Shown here: positions 1,728 to 32,380 of the stretch, one piece after another | Layout: each line of letters starts with the position of its first letter | How positions within the stretch are numbered: the first letter of the stretch is position 1 | DNA from: Candidatus Peregrinibacteria bacterium | GTDB lineage: Bacteria > Patescibacteriota > Gracilibacteria > CAIRYL01 | Direction: 5' to 3' | DNA: 34,020 nucleotides | Assembly: GCA_016220175.1 (NCBI GenBank) | Contig: JACRHZ010000073.1 | Location: 1 to 34,020 of the forward strand | The notes under the pieces: model-generated | Told to the model about the DNA's origin: nothing | Database searches by the model: none | What the model saw: the letters and a program-made list of their open reading frames with translations, nothing else | Made by a program: the position numbers and the translations under genes

Positions 1728-4490
1728 ATGAAAAAATTCCCCTCCTTTTTGAAAGGAATTGCCCTCTCTTCTGTGGCAATACTTTCACTTGTTTTTTCTC
1801 CGCTTGTTTCACTCGCGGTGGATGAACTCCCATTGCCGACTGAAGCAGAGAAAACTTCTGTGGTAAATCTTATTTTGGCTTCAGAAGAAGCAAATTCTGC
1901 AACCGCAACTATTACTGATGCTCGAGCAGAATATATGCGAGCAAAAATTACGTACATCAAAACAGGAACAGAGGGATCTGGTCTTGCAAAAAAATCTGGA
2001 GCAGAGTGGCAAGTAATTTATCAAGGGGATGGCAAAGAAATGTGTGAAGCCATTGCATCGCATAATTTCCCAGCAGATATGGTGCCAGAATGTGGGGAAA
2101 AAAAAGAAGAGAATTCAAACACTGACGGAGTTGATTATCCTTCAGCTGCTGACACTGAAATATTGAAGGATCTTAACACTCCACAGGATGGAAAGGTGTA
2201 TGACTTTTATATTTCTGCCCCCTCTACATCTACTCATGTCTATGGCTGGTACATATTAGAAGGACAACAATCTTCTGAAGAAAATTGGAGGGCAGGTTTT
2301 CTCGCGGTGAAAAATAATGGTACATGGGAAGTAGTACATAAATTTGCGAGTCAAGAAGAAGATTATTGTGCTCCTGCGAAAAAATATGATTTTCCTGAGA
2401 GAATGAGAGATCTCTGTAGTGAAAGCATTGAGAAAGGTGAAACTCCTCTCCCTGAAACAGAAGAAAACATTATAGATACCTATGAGGAAGCCGTAACTGA
2501 AGTTGATAATGCGTACACACAGGTTGATTTAATGGACGACGAACTCTGGGGACTTGAAGGCGAGGAACTTGCCACTGATGAAATTATTCAGTGCGTAAAT
2601 GATTTTGAAGCTATCACCTGGGGAGGAGATGACTATCTCTATGAATATGAGTTTGATACCGACTTTTGGAATTCAGAATATCAAGGGCCACTTGCGGACA
2701 CATGGCAAAAATGTTGGGATCTCATTGATGCTGCGTGGTATTCTCAGGATCCTGAGGTTTGGGTGAATGACAGAATTGAGGAGCTAGATCAAATGAGAAC
2801 TCAGGTGGAATATTTTTCTGGTCAGATTTTAGAACATGAAAATGAATCTATTGGACAGCTCGCGATAGATGCGCTCGACCTCATTGATAAACTCGATAGT
2901 GTGTTTACTGATATTTTATATTACCTTACCGACGGTCCAAATTATAACTATGAAGCAGCGATTGATCTTATTGATAATCAATATGATCCGATGAGAAATG
3001 ATCTGAACACGATTATTCCTGATCTCGAGTATTATCTCGATGTCGTTATTACTGAAGAAGATTATAAATTTTTGTGGCAACAAATCCAGGATGCACGTAC
3101 AGTCCTTGATGAAAAGGCATCTTCTAGCAAAATTGCGAAAAATACCATCAATACGTGTTACGACCTTCTCACTGAAGGAGAGGATCTTCACAATGAGGCT
3201 ATTGATCATCTGAGTTATAAGGAAGTCGATCTCTTTAATGATACGGAATATGCCATTGATGATTGGGCGAGTGAGGTCGAAGACACGTGTGATTTTCTTT
3301 TTGAGGAAGAAGAACTGAGTTCTGCAAATGTTGATGGATACGTGGAAGATGTCTACAAAGGGAAAAATAAGGATGAAATGGCAGATGTGATGAATCTCGT
3401 TGCAGATGCGATTGCGCGAGAAGTTATGCAGAAACTCATGACTATGGATCCGAAAGTACTCGATGCCCTCCTCGCCTCTGCAGGAAAAGAATATGCTGAC
3501 GATACAGCGAGCCTCATTTCTGCGCTGAATATGGTGCCGGACAAACATCAGGATGAACTCGTAGAACAGAAGAAAAGTGTTATGGAAGAGATGAAGAAAC
3601 TTGAGGAGGCGAGAAAAGCTCTCGAGACGGAAAATGCCTCTCTGAAAGATGAACTCAAGAAATTGAAAGAACTTGAGAATAAAATTGCTGGAAATACTTT
3701 TTACGGTGATTCTGCAAAAGAAATTACCGGGGAAATTAAGGACTTGAAAGAAAATATTACTGAACTTTCCGAAAAGGATTTACAAAAGAAGGTAGCAGAT
3801 TTGGACAAGAAAACGGATGAAGCGGTAAAAGAATCCCAAAAAGAGCAATACAAAGACGGAGTCGTTCCATTTACGGATGTGAAATTGACCGATTGGTACG
3901 CTCCATCTGTGGCGGAAATGAAAGATGAGGGAATTGTAAAGGGCTACACTGACAAGGAAACTCAAAAATCAACTGGAGAATTTGGAGCCACTGATACTCT
4001 CACAGTTGGAGCAATTCTGAAGATGGCAATTGAAGCGGTTGAAAGCGAGAAAGTTTCAGCTGCTGAAGGAAATGATCATTGGGCTGAACCATATAAGAAA
4101 ATAGCGACCGAGAAATATGGAGTAAAGGTATCGAAAGGTCTTGATGATAAAGTTACCAGGAGTGAAGTAGCAGAAATGCTGGTAAAAATTGGAGGACTTC
4201 TCCTCTCTGATGACAAAGAAGCTCACTGTCCGGATGTTTCAGCAGATGACACCTATTTTGCAGTATGGCAAACAGTGTACAACAACAAAATAATGCAGGG
4301 AGATAACGGTGGGACAGGAACATGCCGTGGGAATGACAATCTTAACCGTGCTGAAGCATCAAAAGTTGTTGAAAAATTGCTGGATCTCAAGAAGAAAGAG
4401 GAAACGAAAAAGGTAGCAGAAAAAGAAAGGACTCAGAAGGAAGAAGAGAAAAAAGATGTACCACCTCCTCTTGAAGGCACGAAAAAATAA
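1728..4490 (+). CDS. Secreted coiled-coil protein with three C-terminal SLH domains
   Basis: This 920-residue protein is probably an S-layer or wall-anchored surface protein. A signal peptide spans about residues 1-30. Two related modules follow, each with a W(Q/E)V core and a Cys-x15-Cys spacing (C106/C122 and C214/C230). Residues 240-540 are acidic and mostly helical, and 606-705 form a charged coiled coil. Three SLH-like domains lie at about 714-768, 783-822 and 834-885; the third carries Cys834 and Cys866. The protein ends in a Lys/Glu-rich tail. SLH domains bind pyruvylated wall polymers in many bacteria, so an anchoring role is inferred. No catalytic domain was recognised. The gene stands alone and has a strong terminator directly after it. 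Confidence 0.8.
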   Translation: MKKFPSFLKGIALSSVAILSLVFSPLVSLAVDELPLPTEAEKTSVVNLILASEEANSATATITDARAEYMRAKITYIKTGTEGSGLAKKSGAEWQVIYQGDGKEMCEAIASHNFPADMVPECGEKKEENSNTDGVDYPSAADTEILKDLNTPQDGKVYDFYISAPSTSTHVYGWYILEGQQSSEENWRAGFLAVKNNGTWEVVHKFASQEEDYCAPAKKYDFPERMRDLCSESIEKGETPLPETEENIIDTYEEAVTEVDNAYTQVDLMDDELWGLEGEELATDEIIQCVNDFEAITWGGDDYLYEYEFDTDFWNSEYQGPLADTWQKCWDLIDAAWYSQDPEVWVNDRIEELDQMRTQVEYFSGQILEHENESIGQLAIDALDLIDKLDSVFTDILYYLTDGPNYNYEAAIDLIDNQYDPMRNDLNTIIPDLEYYLDVVITEEDYKFLWQQIQDARTVLDEKASSSKIAKNTINTCYDLLTEGEDLHNEAIDHLSYKEVDLFNDTEYAIDDWASEVEDTCDFLFEEEELSSANVDGYVEDVYKGKNKDEMADVMNLVADAIAREVMQKLMTMDPKVLDALLASAGKEYADDTASLISALNMVPDKHQDELVEQKKSVMEEMKKLEEARKALETENASLKDELKKLKELENKIAGNTFYGDSAKEITGEIKDLKENITELSEKDLQKKVADLDKKTDEAVKESQKEQYKDGVVPFTDVKLTDWYAPSVAEMKDEGIVKGYTDKETQKSTGEFGATDTLTVGAILKMAIEAVESEKVSAAEGNDHWAEPYKKIATEKYGVKVSKGLDDKVTRSEVAEMLVKIGGLLLSDDKEAHCPDVSADDTYFAVWQTVYNNKIMQGDNGGTGTCRGNDNLNRAEASKVVEKLLDLKKKEETKKVAEKERTQKEEEKKDVPPPLEGTKK

Positions 4491-5006: not shown

Positions 5007-5357
5007 ATGGACCCAATACATATTCACAATCTCCTCCGCCAGCTTACGAATGAAGTGCGATGTCCCAGTTGTAAGATTCGAGTTCGTCCGAATATGATTC
5101 ATGTTGAAAATTCAACAGAAAACTATTGTCTTCTCAGAATTCGGTGTCATGCCTGTGGTGAAATTTTCCATGGACATGCTCATGTAGGAATCAAAGTGGC
5201 TTCAGGAGAAAATGTTCCTGAAACTGTTCGTCGAATAGCTCCAAAGGATCTTCCTCCTGCTCCTCCGCCAATTTCAGACGAAGAACTTGCAAATTTGGAA
5301 GGAGCACTTGTTCAAAAGATAAGCAGTATCACTGAGTTTTTTCAGGTGCATGCATGA
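5007..5357 (+). CDS. Small zinc-ribbon protein of unknown function
   Basis: This 116-residue cytoplasmic protein has two CxxC knuckles, C19-P-S-C22 and C47-H-A-C50, with the spacing of a zinc ribbon. A proline-rich linker (about residues 80-90) leads to a short acidic helix ending in a hydrophobic EFF motif. Zinc ribbon plus linker plus terminal helix is, from memory, a common unannotated CPR layout; I cannot assign a function. The gene overlaps the next, the lipoprotein, by four bases (ATGA type), so the two are translationally coupled, an odd pairing of a cytoplasmic and an exported product. No Shine-Dalgarno precedes the ATG. Confidence 0.72.
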   Translation: MDPIHIHNLLRQLTNEVRCPSCKIRVRPNMIHVENSTENYCLLRIRCHACGEIFHGHAHVGIKVASGENVPETVRRIAPKDLPPAPPPISDEELANLEGALVQKISSITEFFQVHA

Positions 5358-20781: not shown

Positions 20782-20880
20782 AATGTAAAAGATAAAATGT
20801 AAAATGTTAAAAAAAATTCTAAGTTCTAAAATTTAATGCTTAAAAATTAAGACTTATTTTTACATTTTGCCTTTTACATT
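20782..20880. repeat. Inverted heptanucleotide tracts between the ligase-like gene and alaS
   Basis: The 23-bp arm 20782-20804 (AATGTAA AAGATAA AATGTAA AA) and the arm 20858-20880 are inverted copies matching at 21 of 23 positions. Both have 7-bp periodicity. The right arm overlaps the alaS stop codon and its last two codons. A close copy of the arm is at 26913-26935. Confidence 0.85.
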
Positions 20881-23498
20881 TTACATTCTTCTTCCACTCT
20901 CTTCCTGATCTCCTGAAACTGTTCCAAGTTCACTCCCGCTCCCTGCGCAAAATTTTGAGCTCCACCGCCGCTTCCTCCCGCAAATTCCGTAATTTTTTGA
21001 AGAATGTCTTTCGCGGAAATTTTTCCTTTTGAAGCCACGGAAATCCCACCGTCTCTCGTAAATGTCACGGCGACATCAATTCCACGCTGAACGAGTTCTC
21101 GAGCCAGCGCTCCAATTTTTTTCTTGTCTCCTGTCGGAATTGGTTCACAAACAACTTTCTTGCCATTCACATCTTTTTGAAGAGGAATAAGCTCATCTGT
21201 CTCCAATCTCACAATTTCTTTATTGATCGCAATATGTTCATTTTCTAAATCTTTCCTTTCCTGAAGAAAAATCTTTACTCTTTCTTCGAGTTGTTCAACG
21301 GGGGTTTTTAAACTTGCAGCAATCGATTCTGTCATATCGGATAATTTCCAGAGAAATCTTTGAGCCTCCTTTGCACACACAAGCTCCATTCTCCGAATTC
21401 CACTCGCGACACTTGATTCCGAAATAATTTTTATCGCACCAATATCAGCAGTGTTTCGCACATGAGTTCCTCCGCACAGTTCAAAACTTTTGTCTCCCAT
21501 TCGAATTGTGCGAACAATATTTTCATATTTTTCTGAAAAAAGAGCCTCGGCTCCTGCTTTTTTCGCTTCTTCGAGCGGCATTTCTTTGGTAGCAACTTCA
21601 TTTGCGGAATTCACCCAATCGCAAATTATTTGTTCGATTTCACGAATTTCTTCTTTCGTGACTGCTTTTGGATGGGAAAAATCGAAGCGCGTTCGAGTAG
21701 ATTCCACGAGTGAACCTTGTTGTTCCACATGTTTTCCGAGTACTTGTTTGAGAGCGGCATGAAGAAGATGCGCAAGCGAATGATGACGACGAATTTGTTC
21801 TCTTCTTTCCACATCAATTTTTAGAAAAACTTTATTTTCTTTCTCGAGAGGCGATTCCCCAGATATAATTTTACCAATATGCACAAAAACTCCATTCGGC
21901 ATTTTCTGAACATCCTGAACTTCAATTTTAATTCCAGAATCAGATTCTACTAATCCGGTATCTGCGACTTGTCCTCCTGATTCGGCATAAAACGGAGTTT
22001 CATCGAGCGCGAATTCTACGATTCCTTCGCCCACTTCTTGAATTGCGAGAATTTTTGATTTCCCTTCATTTTTTTCATATCCAATAAATTTTGTTTTCGG
22101 AAGATTTTCAAATATTTTCCGATCAGCATTCTTTCGATCAAAAAATTCTCCTTTTCCTTCTCGAGATCTTTTCTTTTGCTGTTCCATTTCTTGATCAAAC
22201 TTCCTTTCATCCACGGAAATCCCTTTTTCCCTTGCGATATCTCGAGTAATGTCGAGAGGAAATCCATAGGTATCAAACAGTTTAAACGCGTCTTCTCCTG
22301 AAATTACTTTTGGATTTTTCTCCAGAATTTCTTCGAGAATTTTTTCTCCCCGTTCAAGTGTTTCAAAAAACTTTTCTTCTTCAATTTTTATCGTGGTGAA
22401 AATCGTTTCCTTTCGTTCTTCAATTTCTGGATAAAATTCTTTGAAATCTTGAATGTATGCGTCAGAAATTTTCGTGAGAAATGGCGTATTAATGCCCAGA
22501 GTTCGACCATACCGAACTGCCCGACGAATCAGCCTTCGGAGTACGTAACCTCGACCTTCATTGGAAGGAATCGCACCATCAGCGATGATATGCGTTGCGG
22601 CACGGGAATGATCGGCAATAATCCGCATCGCGCGAGTAATCGGATTTTTTACATCAATATCTCCAGAATATGGCGGATATTTCTTTTTGGAGATTTTTTC
22701 TGTTGCGGTAATAACTGCCGAAAATGAGTCAGTTTCAAATATTGTTGGATTTCCATTGAGCACCATCACAATTCTCTCAAGTCCCATTCCTGTATCGACA
22801 TTTTGTGCTGCGAGTTTCGTTAATTTTCCGTCTGCATCTTGATTGAATTCCATGAGCACGTCATTCCAGACTTCGATAAAATCGGTTTCGTCCGTCGCGG
22901 GAGTTTGTTCTTTTTTTGGTTTTTCTTTGCCAATATACACGTACATTTCGGTACATGGACCACATGGACCTCCTCCGCTTCCCGCAGGTCCCCAAAAATT
23001 ATCGCCTCGTCCTTTTTTCCCTCCCGGTTTTGGACCAATTGGAATAATCCGTTCTTCAGGAATTCCGAGTTTTTTCCAAATTTCTATACTTTCGGTATCG
23101 AGCGGAATATCTTTGTCTCCACCAAAAACAGTTACCCAAATTTTTTCAGCAGGAATTTTGAGTTCTTTCGTAAGAAATTCAAAACTCATTTGAATCGCGC
23201 CTTTTTTGAAATAATCGCCAAGAGACCAATTTCCGAGCATTTCGAAATACGTGAGATGTCGATTATCTCCAACTTCATCAATGTCATTCGTCCGAACACA
23301 TTTTTGCGCGCTACAAAGCCTTTTTCCCTTGGGATGCGGTTTTCCCATAAGATTCGGCACAAACTGCTGCATTCCGGCAGTCGTAAACAAAACGGTATGA
23401 TCGTTCTCAGGAAGAAGCGAATCACTCGCAACAAGTGCGTGATTTTTGGAAATAAAGTAATCGAGATATTTCTTGCGAATTTCTTTGGAAGTAACCAT
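20874..23498 (-). CDS. alaS: Alanyl-tRNA synthetase
   Basis: This 874-residue class II synthetase charges tRNA(Ala). The N-terminal catalytic core includes FTTAGMQQFVPNLMG and ERIVMVLNG. The editing domain has HHSLAH (about 568-573) and CGGTHV (about 675-680), supplying the zinc/editing ligands. The C-terminal DHHA1-like domain contains GGSGGGAQNFAQGAG. Length is full. The C-terminus (ECKM) and TAA are encoded by a heptamer repeat. Upstream lie a UUCG-type mini-hairpin and a palindromic element. Start ATG at 23496-23498, preceded by CTCCTC rather than a Shine-Dalgarno. AlaX at 843 adds trans-editing. Confidence 0.97.
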   Translation of the reverse strand: MVTSKEIRKKYLDYFISKNHALVASDSLLPENDHTVLFTTAGMQQFVPNLMGKPHPKGKRLCSAQKCVRTNDIDEVGDNRHLTYFEMLGNWSLGDYFKKGAIQMSFEFLTKELKIPAEKIWVTVFGGDKDIPLDTESIEIWKKLGIPEERIIPIGPKPGGKKGRGDNFWGPAGSGGGPCGPCTEMYVYIGKEKPKKEQTPATDETDFIEVWNDVLMEFNQDADGKLTKLAAQNVDTGMGLERIVMVLNGNPTIFETDSFSAVITATEKISKKKYPPYSGDIDVKNPITRAMRIIADHSRAATHIIADGAIPSNEGRGYVLRRLIRRAVRYGRTLGINTPFLTKISDAYIQDFKEFYPEIEERKETIFTTIKIEEEKFFETLERGEKILEEILEKNPKVISGEDAFKLFDTYGFPLDITRDIAREKGISVDERKFDQEMEQQKKRSREGKGEFFDRKNADRKIFENLPKTKFIGYEKNEGKSKILAIQEVGEGIVEFALDETPFYAESGGQVADTGLVESDSGIKIEVQDVQKMPNGVFVHIGKIISGESPLEKENKVFLKIDVERREQIRRHHSLAHLLHAALKQVLGKHVEQQGSLVESTRTRFDFSHPKAVTKEEIREIEQIICDWVNSANEVATKEMPLEEAKKAGAEALFSEKYENIVRTIRMGDKSFELCGGTHVRNTADIGAIKIISESSVASGIRRMELVCAKEAQRFLWKLSDMTESIAASLKTPVEQLEERVKIFLQERKDLENEHIAINKEIVRLETDELIPLQKDVNGKKVVCEPIPTGDKKKIGALARELVQRGIDVAVTFTRDGGISVASKGKISAKDILQKITEFAGGSGGGAQNFAQGAGVNLEQFQEIRKRVEEECKM

Positions 23499-23545: not shown

Positions 23546-23572
23546 GAGAGACAAGACAATGCCTTGTCTCTC
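23546..23572. repeat. Palindromic element, intergenic copy
   Basis: Arms GAGAGACAAG and CTTGTCTCTC flank a 7-base centre (ACAATGC) identical to the centre of the copy inside trpC at 25108-25136. It lies 48 bp upstream of alaS, next to a small CTCC-ttcg-GGAG hairpin. It differs from the trpCF copies in its outermost bases. Confidence 0.85.
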
Positions 23573-24228: not shown

Positions 24229-25731
24229 TTAGTTTATGAAAATTGTAAAAAGATTTTTGAGAAGCTCCTCATCCTTTCTCCCCACACTCTTCTCCACTCC
24301 CGAATTCACATCAATTCCATTCGGAAAACAGGATTTTATAATTTCTTGAACATTCTCTGGGGTAATTCCTCCAGCAACAAAGAATTTCTGACCTTCTGCG
24401 AGATATTTTGGAATTTTTTTTAATAATTCAAGCGAAATTTGTTTTCCTGTTCCGCCGCGAGATTTTTCGGAATATGCATCTAATAAAACCGCATCACAAA
24501 AAGAATATTCAGAAATTTTCTGTAAATCTGATTCATTTATGATGCGCAATGCCTTCCAAATTTTTGGTTTGTTTCGTAGAGACGCGCTATAGCGCGTCTC
24601 TACTACGAATTCACGGCAAAATTCCGGTGTTTCGTCGCCATGCAATTGAATTACATCCAGAAAATTATATTCATGTAGAGACGCGATTAATCGCGTCTCT
24701 ACGTTTAATGGATTTACAAAAACACCAACAAATTTTGGTTTTTTCATCGCGTGTTCGCGGATATTTTCGACAATTTTTCGTGCATCTTCCAATAAAATCC
24801 TCCGTGGCGATTCCTCCGCAAAAACAAACCCGAGATAATCAGCATCTTTTCCTGCCAAAATTGCATCTTCTAAATTTGTAATTCCACATATTTTCACTTC
24901 CGGTTTTCCAGAAAGATCATAAAGCGTCTTTTTTCGATCGTCTGAAGCAATAATTGCGGTACCAATCAAAATCGCATCGGCATTTTTTGCGTATTTACGA
25001 ATATCATTACGAGAAGAGATTCCACTTTCGCAGACGAAAATTTTCTCTTTTCGCATATTTTCTGGAACTTTTGAAAAAAGGTCATGAAAATTATTTAGAT
25101 TTAATTCGTAGAGACAAGACAATGCCTTGTCTCTACTATCAACATTACAATCTCGATTCACCTGTAAATTTCGATTATTCACTCCAACAATTCTCGCATC
25201 GGTATTCTTCAAAACATCGAATAATTCCTCTTCATCATGAACTTCTACAAGCGCATCCATTCCTAATTCTTGAAGAATCGATAAAAACTTTTGAATTGTT
25301 TTTGCATCAAGAACACTTCGCATGAGAAGCACGGCATCAGCCCCATATTCAGCTGCTTCGTAAATTTGTATTTCATCCAAAATAAAATCCTTTCTGAGAA
25401 TCGGAAGATTTGTAATTTCTCGAACTTTTCGAATATTCTCAATTGATCCGCCAAAAAAATTTTCATCGGTGAGAACTGAAATTGCCATAGCTCCAGAATC
25501 AGAATACAATTTCGCAAGACTTTCCACGCTATCATCCGAGCGAAAAAGCTGACCTTTTGATGGCGATTTTGGCTTTATTTCCGCAATCAGTTTTGGATAT
25601 ATCGATTCTTGAGAAAGCGCTTTGTAAAAAGCAAAATTTCTCTTTTTAAAATTCTGAGGCATCACAAAATTTTTCTTTAGTTCAAGAATTTCTTTTTTCT
25701 TGTTCTCAATGATTTCTTCTAAAATGTTCAC
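24229..25731 (-). CDS. trpCF: Fused indole-3-glycerol-phosphate synthase / phosphoribosylanthranilate isomerase with in-frame palindromic insertions
   Basis: This 500-residue bifunctional tryptophan enzyme has TrpC at about 1-270 and TrpF at about 277-500. TrpC blocks: LIAEIKPKSPSKG (48-60), LRKDFILDE (112-120), VEVHDEEEL (162-170), VGVNNRNL (182-189), CESGIS (234-239), LIGTAI (255-260). TrpF blocks: VKICGITNLEDA (279-290), FVGVFVN (334-340), QLHGDE (362-367), SRGGTGK (424-430), AGGITPEN (453-460), GIDVNSGVE (472-480). Catalytic regions look intact. Three palindromic elements (24576-24603, 24675-24702, 25108-25136) are translated in frame as parts of loops or helices at about 199-208, 344-353 and 377-386. 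The start is GTG at 25729-25731. No other trp gene is in the window. Confidence 0.93.
   Translation of the reverse strand: MNILEEIIENKKKEILELKKNFVMPQNFKKRNFAFYKALSQESIYPKLIAEIKPKSPSKGQLFRSDDSVESLAKLYSDSGAMAISVLTDENFFGGSIENIRKVREITNLPILRKDFILDEIQIYEAAEYGADAVLLMRSVLDAKTIQKFLSILQELGMDALVEVHDEEELFDVLKNTDARIVGVNNRNLQVNRDCNVDSRDKALSCLYELNLNNFHDLFSKVPENMRKEKIFVCESGISSRNDIRKYAKNADAILIGTAIIASDDRKKTLYDLSGKPEVKICGITNLEDAILAGKDADYLGFVFAEESPRRILLEDARKIVENIREHAMKKPKFVGVFVNPLNVETRLIASLHEYNFLDVIQLHGDETPEFCREFVVETRYSASLRNKPKIWKALRIINESDLQKISEYSFCDAVLLDAYSEKSRGGTGKQISLELLKKIPKYLAEGQKFFVAGGITPENVQEIIKSCFPNGIDVNSGVEKSVGRKDEELLKNLFTIFIN
24576..24603. repeat. Palindromic element 1, inside trpF
   Basis: A perfect 28-bp palindrome with half-site GTAGAGACGCGCTA. 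On the coding strand it is read as V-E-T-R-Y-S-A-S-L-R (377-386). Flanks show TTCGTA and TACGAA around it. Confidence 0.95.
24675..24702. repeat. Palindromic element 2, inside trpF
   Basis: A perfect 28-bp palindrome with half-site GTAGAGACGCGATT. It is read in the same frame as element 1, as V-E-T-R-L-I-A-S-L-H (344-353). Confidence 0.95.
25108..25136. repeat. Palindromic element 3, inside trpC
   Basis: A 29-bp near-palindrome with 11-bp arms GTAGAGACAAG and CTTGTCTCTAC and a 7-base centre. It is read in a different frame from elements 1 and 2, as S-R-D-K-A-L-S-C-L-Y (199-208). Confidence 0.93.
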
Positions 25732-30239: not shown

Positions 30240-30315
30240 GGGATATATATTTGTTTGAATCTTTCAGGAATCATTATAGCACAAAAAATCATGTTTTGTC
30301 TAACTCAACAGCTCA

Positions 30316-30385
30316 GAGCGAAGAGTTAAGAGCGAAGAGCTAAAGGCGAAAAATTCTCGCTCTTAGCTCTTAGTTCTTCGCTTTT
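30316..30385. repeat. Inverted heptanucleotide tract upstream of dnaK
   Basis: Units GAGCGAA, GAGTTAA, GAGCGAA, GAGCTAA, AGGCGAA (30316-30350) face CGCTCTT, AGCTCTT, AGTTCTT, CGCTTTT (30358-30385). Both arms have an exact 7-bp period and pair imperfectly into a long hairpin, ending three bases before the dnaK -35 box. Confidence 0.9.
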
Positions 30386-30388
30386 ATC

Positions 30389-32380
<1,992 letters not shown>

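Follow-up and report, generated by a model that had tools for sequence, protein, structure and literature searches.

The window analysed here is a stretch of 34,020 nucleotides from a draft genome (1.49 Mb, 79 contigs) of the class Gracilibacteria. On its minus strand, at 24229..25731, lies trpCF, which encodes a bifunctional indole-3-glycerol-phosphate synthase / phosphoribosylanthranilate isomerase of 500 amino acids. The open reading frame, two Pfam matches (PF00218, IGPS, residues 4-270, E 1.6e-67; PF00697, PRAI, residues 279-495, E 6.4e-38) and an alignment with E. coli 1PII spanning residues 34-496 all support this assignment. Within the gene, on the same strand, are three palindromes of the general form GTAGAGAC-N-GTCTCTAC. 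Element 1 (24576..24603, GTAGAGACGCGCTATAGCGCGTCTCTAC) and element 2 (24675..24702, GTAGAGACGCGATTAATCGCGTCTCTAC) are perfect, 28 bp long and located in the PRAI domain, at codons 377-386 (VETRYSASL) and 344-353 (VETRLIASL). Element 3 (25108..25136) is a near-perfect palindrome of 29 bp with one mismatched pair (AAGACA/TGCCTT), and it is read in the IGPS domain at codons 199-208 as SRDKALSCLY. The three arm pairs account for 6 occurrences of GTAGAGAC in the window, against 0.33 expected from a shuffled window. Folded as single-stranded DNA, elements 1, 2 and 3 reach -15.8, -14.1 and -9.5 kcal/mol, values not matched in 200 shuffles. Pattern search, folding and translation thus confirm the three in-frame palindromes that the initial annotation had reported. 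It missed a fourth, decayed copy, GAGAGACAAGACAATGCCTTGTCTCTC, at 23546..23572, which shares a GAGACAAGACAATGCCTTGTCTC core with element 3 and sits in the gap upstream of the alaS ORF (20874-23498, minus strand).

The arm contains TAG in one of its three frames, and the same annotation noted that this is the frame not used. That observation is correct for trpCF, where the reading is GTA-GAG-ACG in elements 1 and 2 and (A)GT-AGA-GAC in element 3. It is also correct for the genome as a whole. Among 13 in-frame copies, the phase is GTA-GAG (or GGA-GAG) in seven and AGA-GAC in six, and the TAG phase is never used.

The palindromes of trpCF belong to a dispersed family. There are 26 exact GTAGAGAC-N-GTCTCTAC palindromes in the genome, against 0 for a reversed-pattern control, and a looser pattern finds about seven further decayed copies, for some 33 overall, of which about 40% lie within genes in the reading frame. 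Scoring each copy as intergenic or in frame, as had been proposed, extends in-frame insertion to ten genes beyond trpCF, with 8 of the 26 exact copies intragenic. The 13 in-frame copies, exact or decayed, lie in eleven genes identified by Pfam, with coordinates set by translation. The exact ones are in TrpCF (three), IleS, PriA, RsmF, a QueE-like protein and a Y1 transposase; the decayed ones are in RadA, PheT, RibD, a FemX-like protein and RibF. A further, degenerate copy stands in tandem in PheT. The sequence GCAGGTGCAAGACCCGCCCCTAC in RsmF, translated as AGARPAPT, appears to be left over from a different family. Two further matches to the loose pattern were set aside: L114:1163-1178 as apparent chance, and L105:3948-3967 as apparently native sequence of a 2217-aa ORF, which we take from reading it to be alpha-2-macroglobulin-like. 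A GTAGG..CCTAC family is not amplified (2 copies), and a literature search for the 8-mer returned unrelated papers only.

Across 45 distinct elements, from loci taken around elements and RAYTs, the length is always 28 or 29 bp and the arms are fixed, and the cores are variable, covarying and mostly paired (fully so in 35 of the 45). We read fixed length and arms together with paired, variable cores as a likely signature of hairpin recognition at the DNA level. GTAG pairs with CTAC in all 26 exact copies, as the search pattern demands, and the decayed copies lack these outer bases. A flanking direct repeat of at least 4 bp occurs at 0-1 of the 26 copies, so target duplication is absent, and the flanks show a pyrimidine bias at -1. 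This is as would be expected of HUH/Y1 and not of DDE transposition, and a reading of the elements as MITEs of a DDE transposase was dropped when no target-site duplication was found.

The genome has nine Y1_Tnp matches, several with their own palindrome within or beside the ORF. The RAYT on contig C55 of this genome (G000) has GTAGAGACAAGGCAATGCCTTGTCTCTAC upstream, at 4442-4470, and again in frame at 5060-5088, where the copy sits between the HUH and Tyr motifs. Compared with the published motifs NH[IFV]H, WQ and YIxNNP, the RAYTs on C72, C49 and C75 match, the one on C11 has DHVH, and the C55 RAYT departs from them with EHLH and YIQYNP; WQ is present in five of five. At least eleven other genomes of the class (G001, G015, G026, G035, G042, G044, G058, G074, G129, G177 and G281) likewise have RAYTs with an in-frame GTAGAGAC element. 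In a sample of 277 class genomes, taken as G000-G276, 53 have both palindrome and RAYT, 12 of the 65 palindrome-bearing genomes have no RAYT match, 32 have only a RAYT and 180 have neither; the odds ratio of 25 (p 5e-23) takes no account of kinship and is raised by the copies that RAYTs themselves carry. The identical 29-mer GTAGAGACAAGGCAATGCCTTGTCTCTAC also occurs in Bacteroidota, Ignavibacteria, Gammaproteobacteria (Thiocystis), Planctomycetota, Riflebacteria, Neomarinimicrobiota and other Patescibacteria, and the copies in other phyla are mostly intergenic.

Several known systems invite comparison. Quentin et al. 2018 described double-foot REPs of TnpAREP subclass 2.4 and found such REPs inserted into the tnpAREP frame, between HuH and Y; the inserts they report concern tnpAREP itself, and earlier work is cited for other genes (PMC6006769). 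The elements here resemble these subclass 2.4 (RAYT group 4) REPs in their 5' GTAG and 3' CTAC, long hairpin and spread over several phyla, in the HxH/WQ/YIxxNP layout of the RAYT with a REP in its frame between HuH and Tyr (PMC6006769), and in being dispersed multicopy hairpins with one copy flanking a tnpAREP gene of the same genome (C55:4442-4470). They differ from the published cases in their host, a member of the Gracilibacteria (Patescibacteria), in numbering only some 33 copies and in the share of these that is in frame in genes (about 40%), with three copies in one gene. Cutting of single-stranded REPs by TnpAREP depends on GTAG (PMC8266576). Di Nocera et al. 2013 described intragenic GTAG and CGTC repeats (PMC3733652). 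Like the GTAG REPs of O. terrae in that work, the present palindromes are GTAG-tagged, associated with RAYTs and found in frame in replication, repair and tRNA-synthetase genes (PMC3733652). In classical GTAG REPs, however, the tag is unpaired and at one end, whereas all exact copies here are symmetric, with GTAG paired to CTAC.

The initial annotation named the Rickettsia palindromic elements as the precedent. As a functional precedent this stands, since those elements too are palindromes that sit in frame within core genes, in a bacterium with a small genome, and are translated into additional peptide. As kinship it is not supported. Intragenic repeats of R. conorii were identified as RPE-4 and RPE-6 (PMC3733652), which are CGTC repeats and apparently have no dedicated transposase (PMC3733652); RPE-1 is longer than either. 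The elements here have another tag and sequence, with arms GTAGAGAC/GTCTCTAC and GTAG ends, and a RAYT carries the same palindrome.

We believe the palindromes are very probably non-autonomous double-foot REPs (5' GTAG, 3' CTAC) spread by an HUH/Y1 TnpAREP/RAYT of subclass 2.4. We base this on the C55 RAYT with its palindrome both upstream and in frame, on the co-occurrence across the class, on the copies in other phyla and on the lack of target duplications. The RAYT would recognise the single-stranded hairpin plus GTAG, cut beside it and paste a copy into new sites. Copies that shift the frame, introduce TAG or strike a rigid part of a protein would be lost. Those that add a net multiple of three bases and land in tolerant segments would be retained as extra peptide (VETR..., RDKA...). 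On the predicted translations the in-frame copies should be read in this way, and the retained segments probably carry no benefit.

It had also been suggested that the repeats are selected to be translatable, and on this reading they would be Rickettsia-element-like donors of peptides. We consider this improbable. None of the 13 in-frame copies is in the stop phase, but a survival filter accounts for the phases, and random palindromes are nearly as open. The two non-TAG phases are open in 0.97 and 0.92 of distinct elements, against 0.88 and 0.86 of random palindromes with the same arms; the excess is slight in phase 0 (p 0.02) and not significant in the other phase (p 0.11). Under a neutral-survival model, in which all frame-keeping, stop-free insertions are neutral and the coding fraction is 0.92 as estimated from the window, an intragenic share of 0.71 is expected, and the observed share of 8/26 exact copies is below it. 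Taken together with the marginal excess in openness, this means that loss of frame-breaking insertions suffices. In favour of selection, the intragenic share outside RAYTs is higher in this genome than that of the identical 29-mer elsewhere, in other phyla (7/26 vs 3/61, p 0.007, from samples drawn differently), which points to a higher tolerance of intragenic copies in this genome. However, the same sequences are shared with those phyla and are mostly intergenic there, and GTAG ends in place of CGTC, with a RAYT partner, argue against the Rickettsia kinship as well.

A different objection is that the segments were never inserted at all, and that local template switching (quasi-palindrome correction) made palindromes out of the DNA of native segments. 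The homologs of TrpCF bear directly on this. Element 3 lies within a 16-aa insert in the IGPS domain that is missing from nearly all of 23 class homologs, one of which has two extra residues there. In the class alignment element 2 gives a net gain of 3 residues relative to PRAI homologs. Most homologs have a short version of the PRAI loop that holds element 1. In relatives of the same family the loop is of similar length, and against these the class alignment gives no clear gain, so the three are not equally clean insertions; some 55 unrelated residues occupy the element 1 loop in the TrpCF of another genome (G018). The proposal that related trpCF genes would lack the element segments is supported for element 3. 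A structural model of TrpCF built from 29 sequences has a mean pLDDT of 92.6, with local dips at residues 191-210 (element 3) and 341-350 (element 2), and places element 1 at a helix end and loop. In the other enzymes, with alignments to solved homologs read by eye, net gains are about 14 residues in PheT, roughly 8-12 in IleS, 11 in PriA, about 10 in RibD, about 5 in RsmF and about 1 in RadA. Inserts thus range from +1 to +16 residues with no constant element length, and this variation implies that flanking sequence was probably gained or lost along with insertion. The few residues, if any, gained at elements 1 and 2 and the one or so in RadA speak for template switching, but the clean 16-aa insert at element 3 speaks against it, and the same arms and cores at 26 sites in the genome and in other phyla are beyond local events. 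We regard template switching as very unlikely.

We give as little weight to the idea that these are functional mRNA hairpins or regulatory sites, attenuator-like or stabilising, whose translation is incidental. The hairpins are stable, and an mRNA role has been proposed for REPs elsewhere (PMC3733652), but the genes that hold copies are unrelated, the positions within them likewise, and intergenic DNA has copies too. That short-read misjoins at a dispersed repeat produced the pattern is extremely improbable even in a 79-contig draft, where 28-bp repeats can confuse assemblers, since in many genes the two flanks of an element encode parts of a single protein and share its frame, as misjoined unrelated loci would not, and the pattern recurs in independent genomes.

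In-frame palindromic repeats are known from elsewhere; their presence in so many core enzymes of this lineage is new to us. The Patescibacteria are a reduced, probably host-dependent lineage. Reading the palindromes as RAYT-linked REPs would extend the phenomenon of REPs turned into protein to such a lineage, in at least eleven genes, among them those for tRNA synthetases and for enzymes of replication, repair and riboflavin synthesis, and would make it a parallel to Rickettsia by an independent type of element. Whether bacteria with reduced genomes tolerate such insertions more than others becomes testable. The in-frame inserts whose homologs have known structures also offer a natural experiment on where enzymes take ten extra residues.

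Whole transposase domains are found in frame as well. Three genomes of one family, in two genera, have a Y1_Tnp/RAYT domain in the CP1 region of isoleucyl-tRNA synthetase (L157:2323-6255 in G014:C40, L158:2539-6246 in G035:C3, and G044:C64:10179-10874). In G014 and G035 the domain is complete, both HxH and Tyr being kept, and it has its own palindrome, GTTAACC...GGTTAAC. A congener of G035, G026 (L309), has an empty site, FNYFADKKNEGAFRVVAADF against FNYFADKD-[RAYT]-QKPQGFRIVAADF, and the site in G058 (L311) is likewise empty. Between G014 and G035 the RAYT domain has a dN of 0.25 against a dS of about 2.4, the latter near saturation. This indicates purifying selection on the RAYT domain, and the synthetase sequence around it is constrained in the same manner. 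AF2 modelled the RAYT segment in IleS poorly (pLDDT 46.6), and we found no earlier description of a RAYT domain inside IleS in the literature searched. Short REPs and this whole domain both persist in frame in essential genes. On that basis the TnpAREP/REP system of Gracilibacteria might be a standing source of protein insertions, and the element may have evolved for life within ORFs, for example with ends that are readable and a RAYT that can function as an internal domain; we think this improbable.

Some other observations concern related elements and neighbouring sequence. Other RAYTs of this genome have palindromes of their own, of the GAAGGCG..CGCCTTC, GGAGCAACTC..GAGTTGCTCC and TTTCTTTTCTGTCG types, some in the RAYT frame (L091:11646-12112, L109:2598-2625, L111:1709-2470, L108:2429-2467). 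In G129 and G177, relatives with many in-frame TGA codons, RAYTs (L030:1209-1865 and L033:1218-1814) carry GTAGAGACAATTCATGAATTGTCTCTAC in the TGA-containing phase, read as Gly by code 25 (RRDNSGIVST). Two ORFs of G193 (L034:1456-2085 and L189:482-2122), both with prepilin-like N-termini, contain the same element, read VETYCNTSL, in frame and just ahead of the hydrophobic segment. Further in-frame elements in other Gracilibacteria, with gene likeness judged by eye, are in a DapF-like gene (G281, L187:1739-2896), a PrmC-like gene (G197, L031:1154-1837) and an IleS-like gene (G001, L160:2-3775). The G001 IleS seems to be without the His_Phos_1 domain (PF00300) that the IleS of our genome (L089:1299-5165) has at residues 544-710, where it separates the two halves of the catalytic domain. 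Finally, the window contains an imperfect inverted, repetitive GCTCTTA/AAGAGC block at 30307-30389, in the gap before a dnaK-like ORF at 30452.
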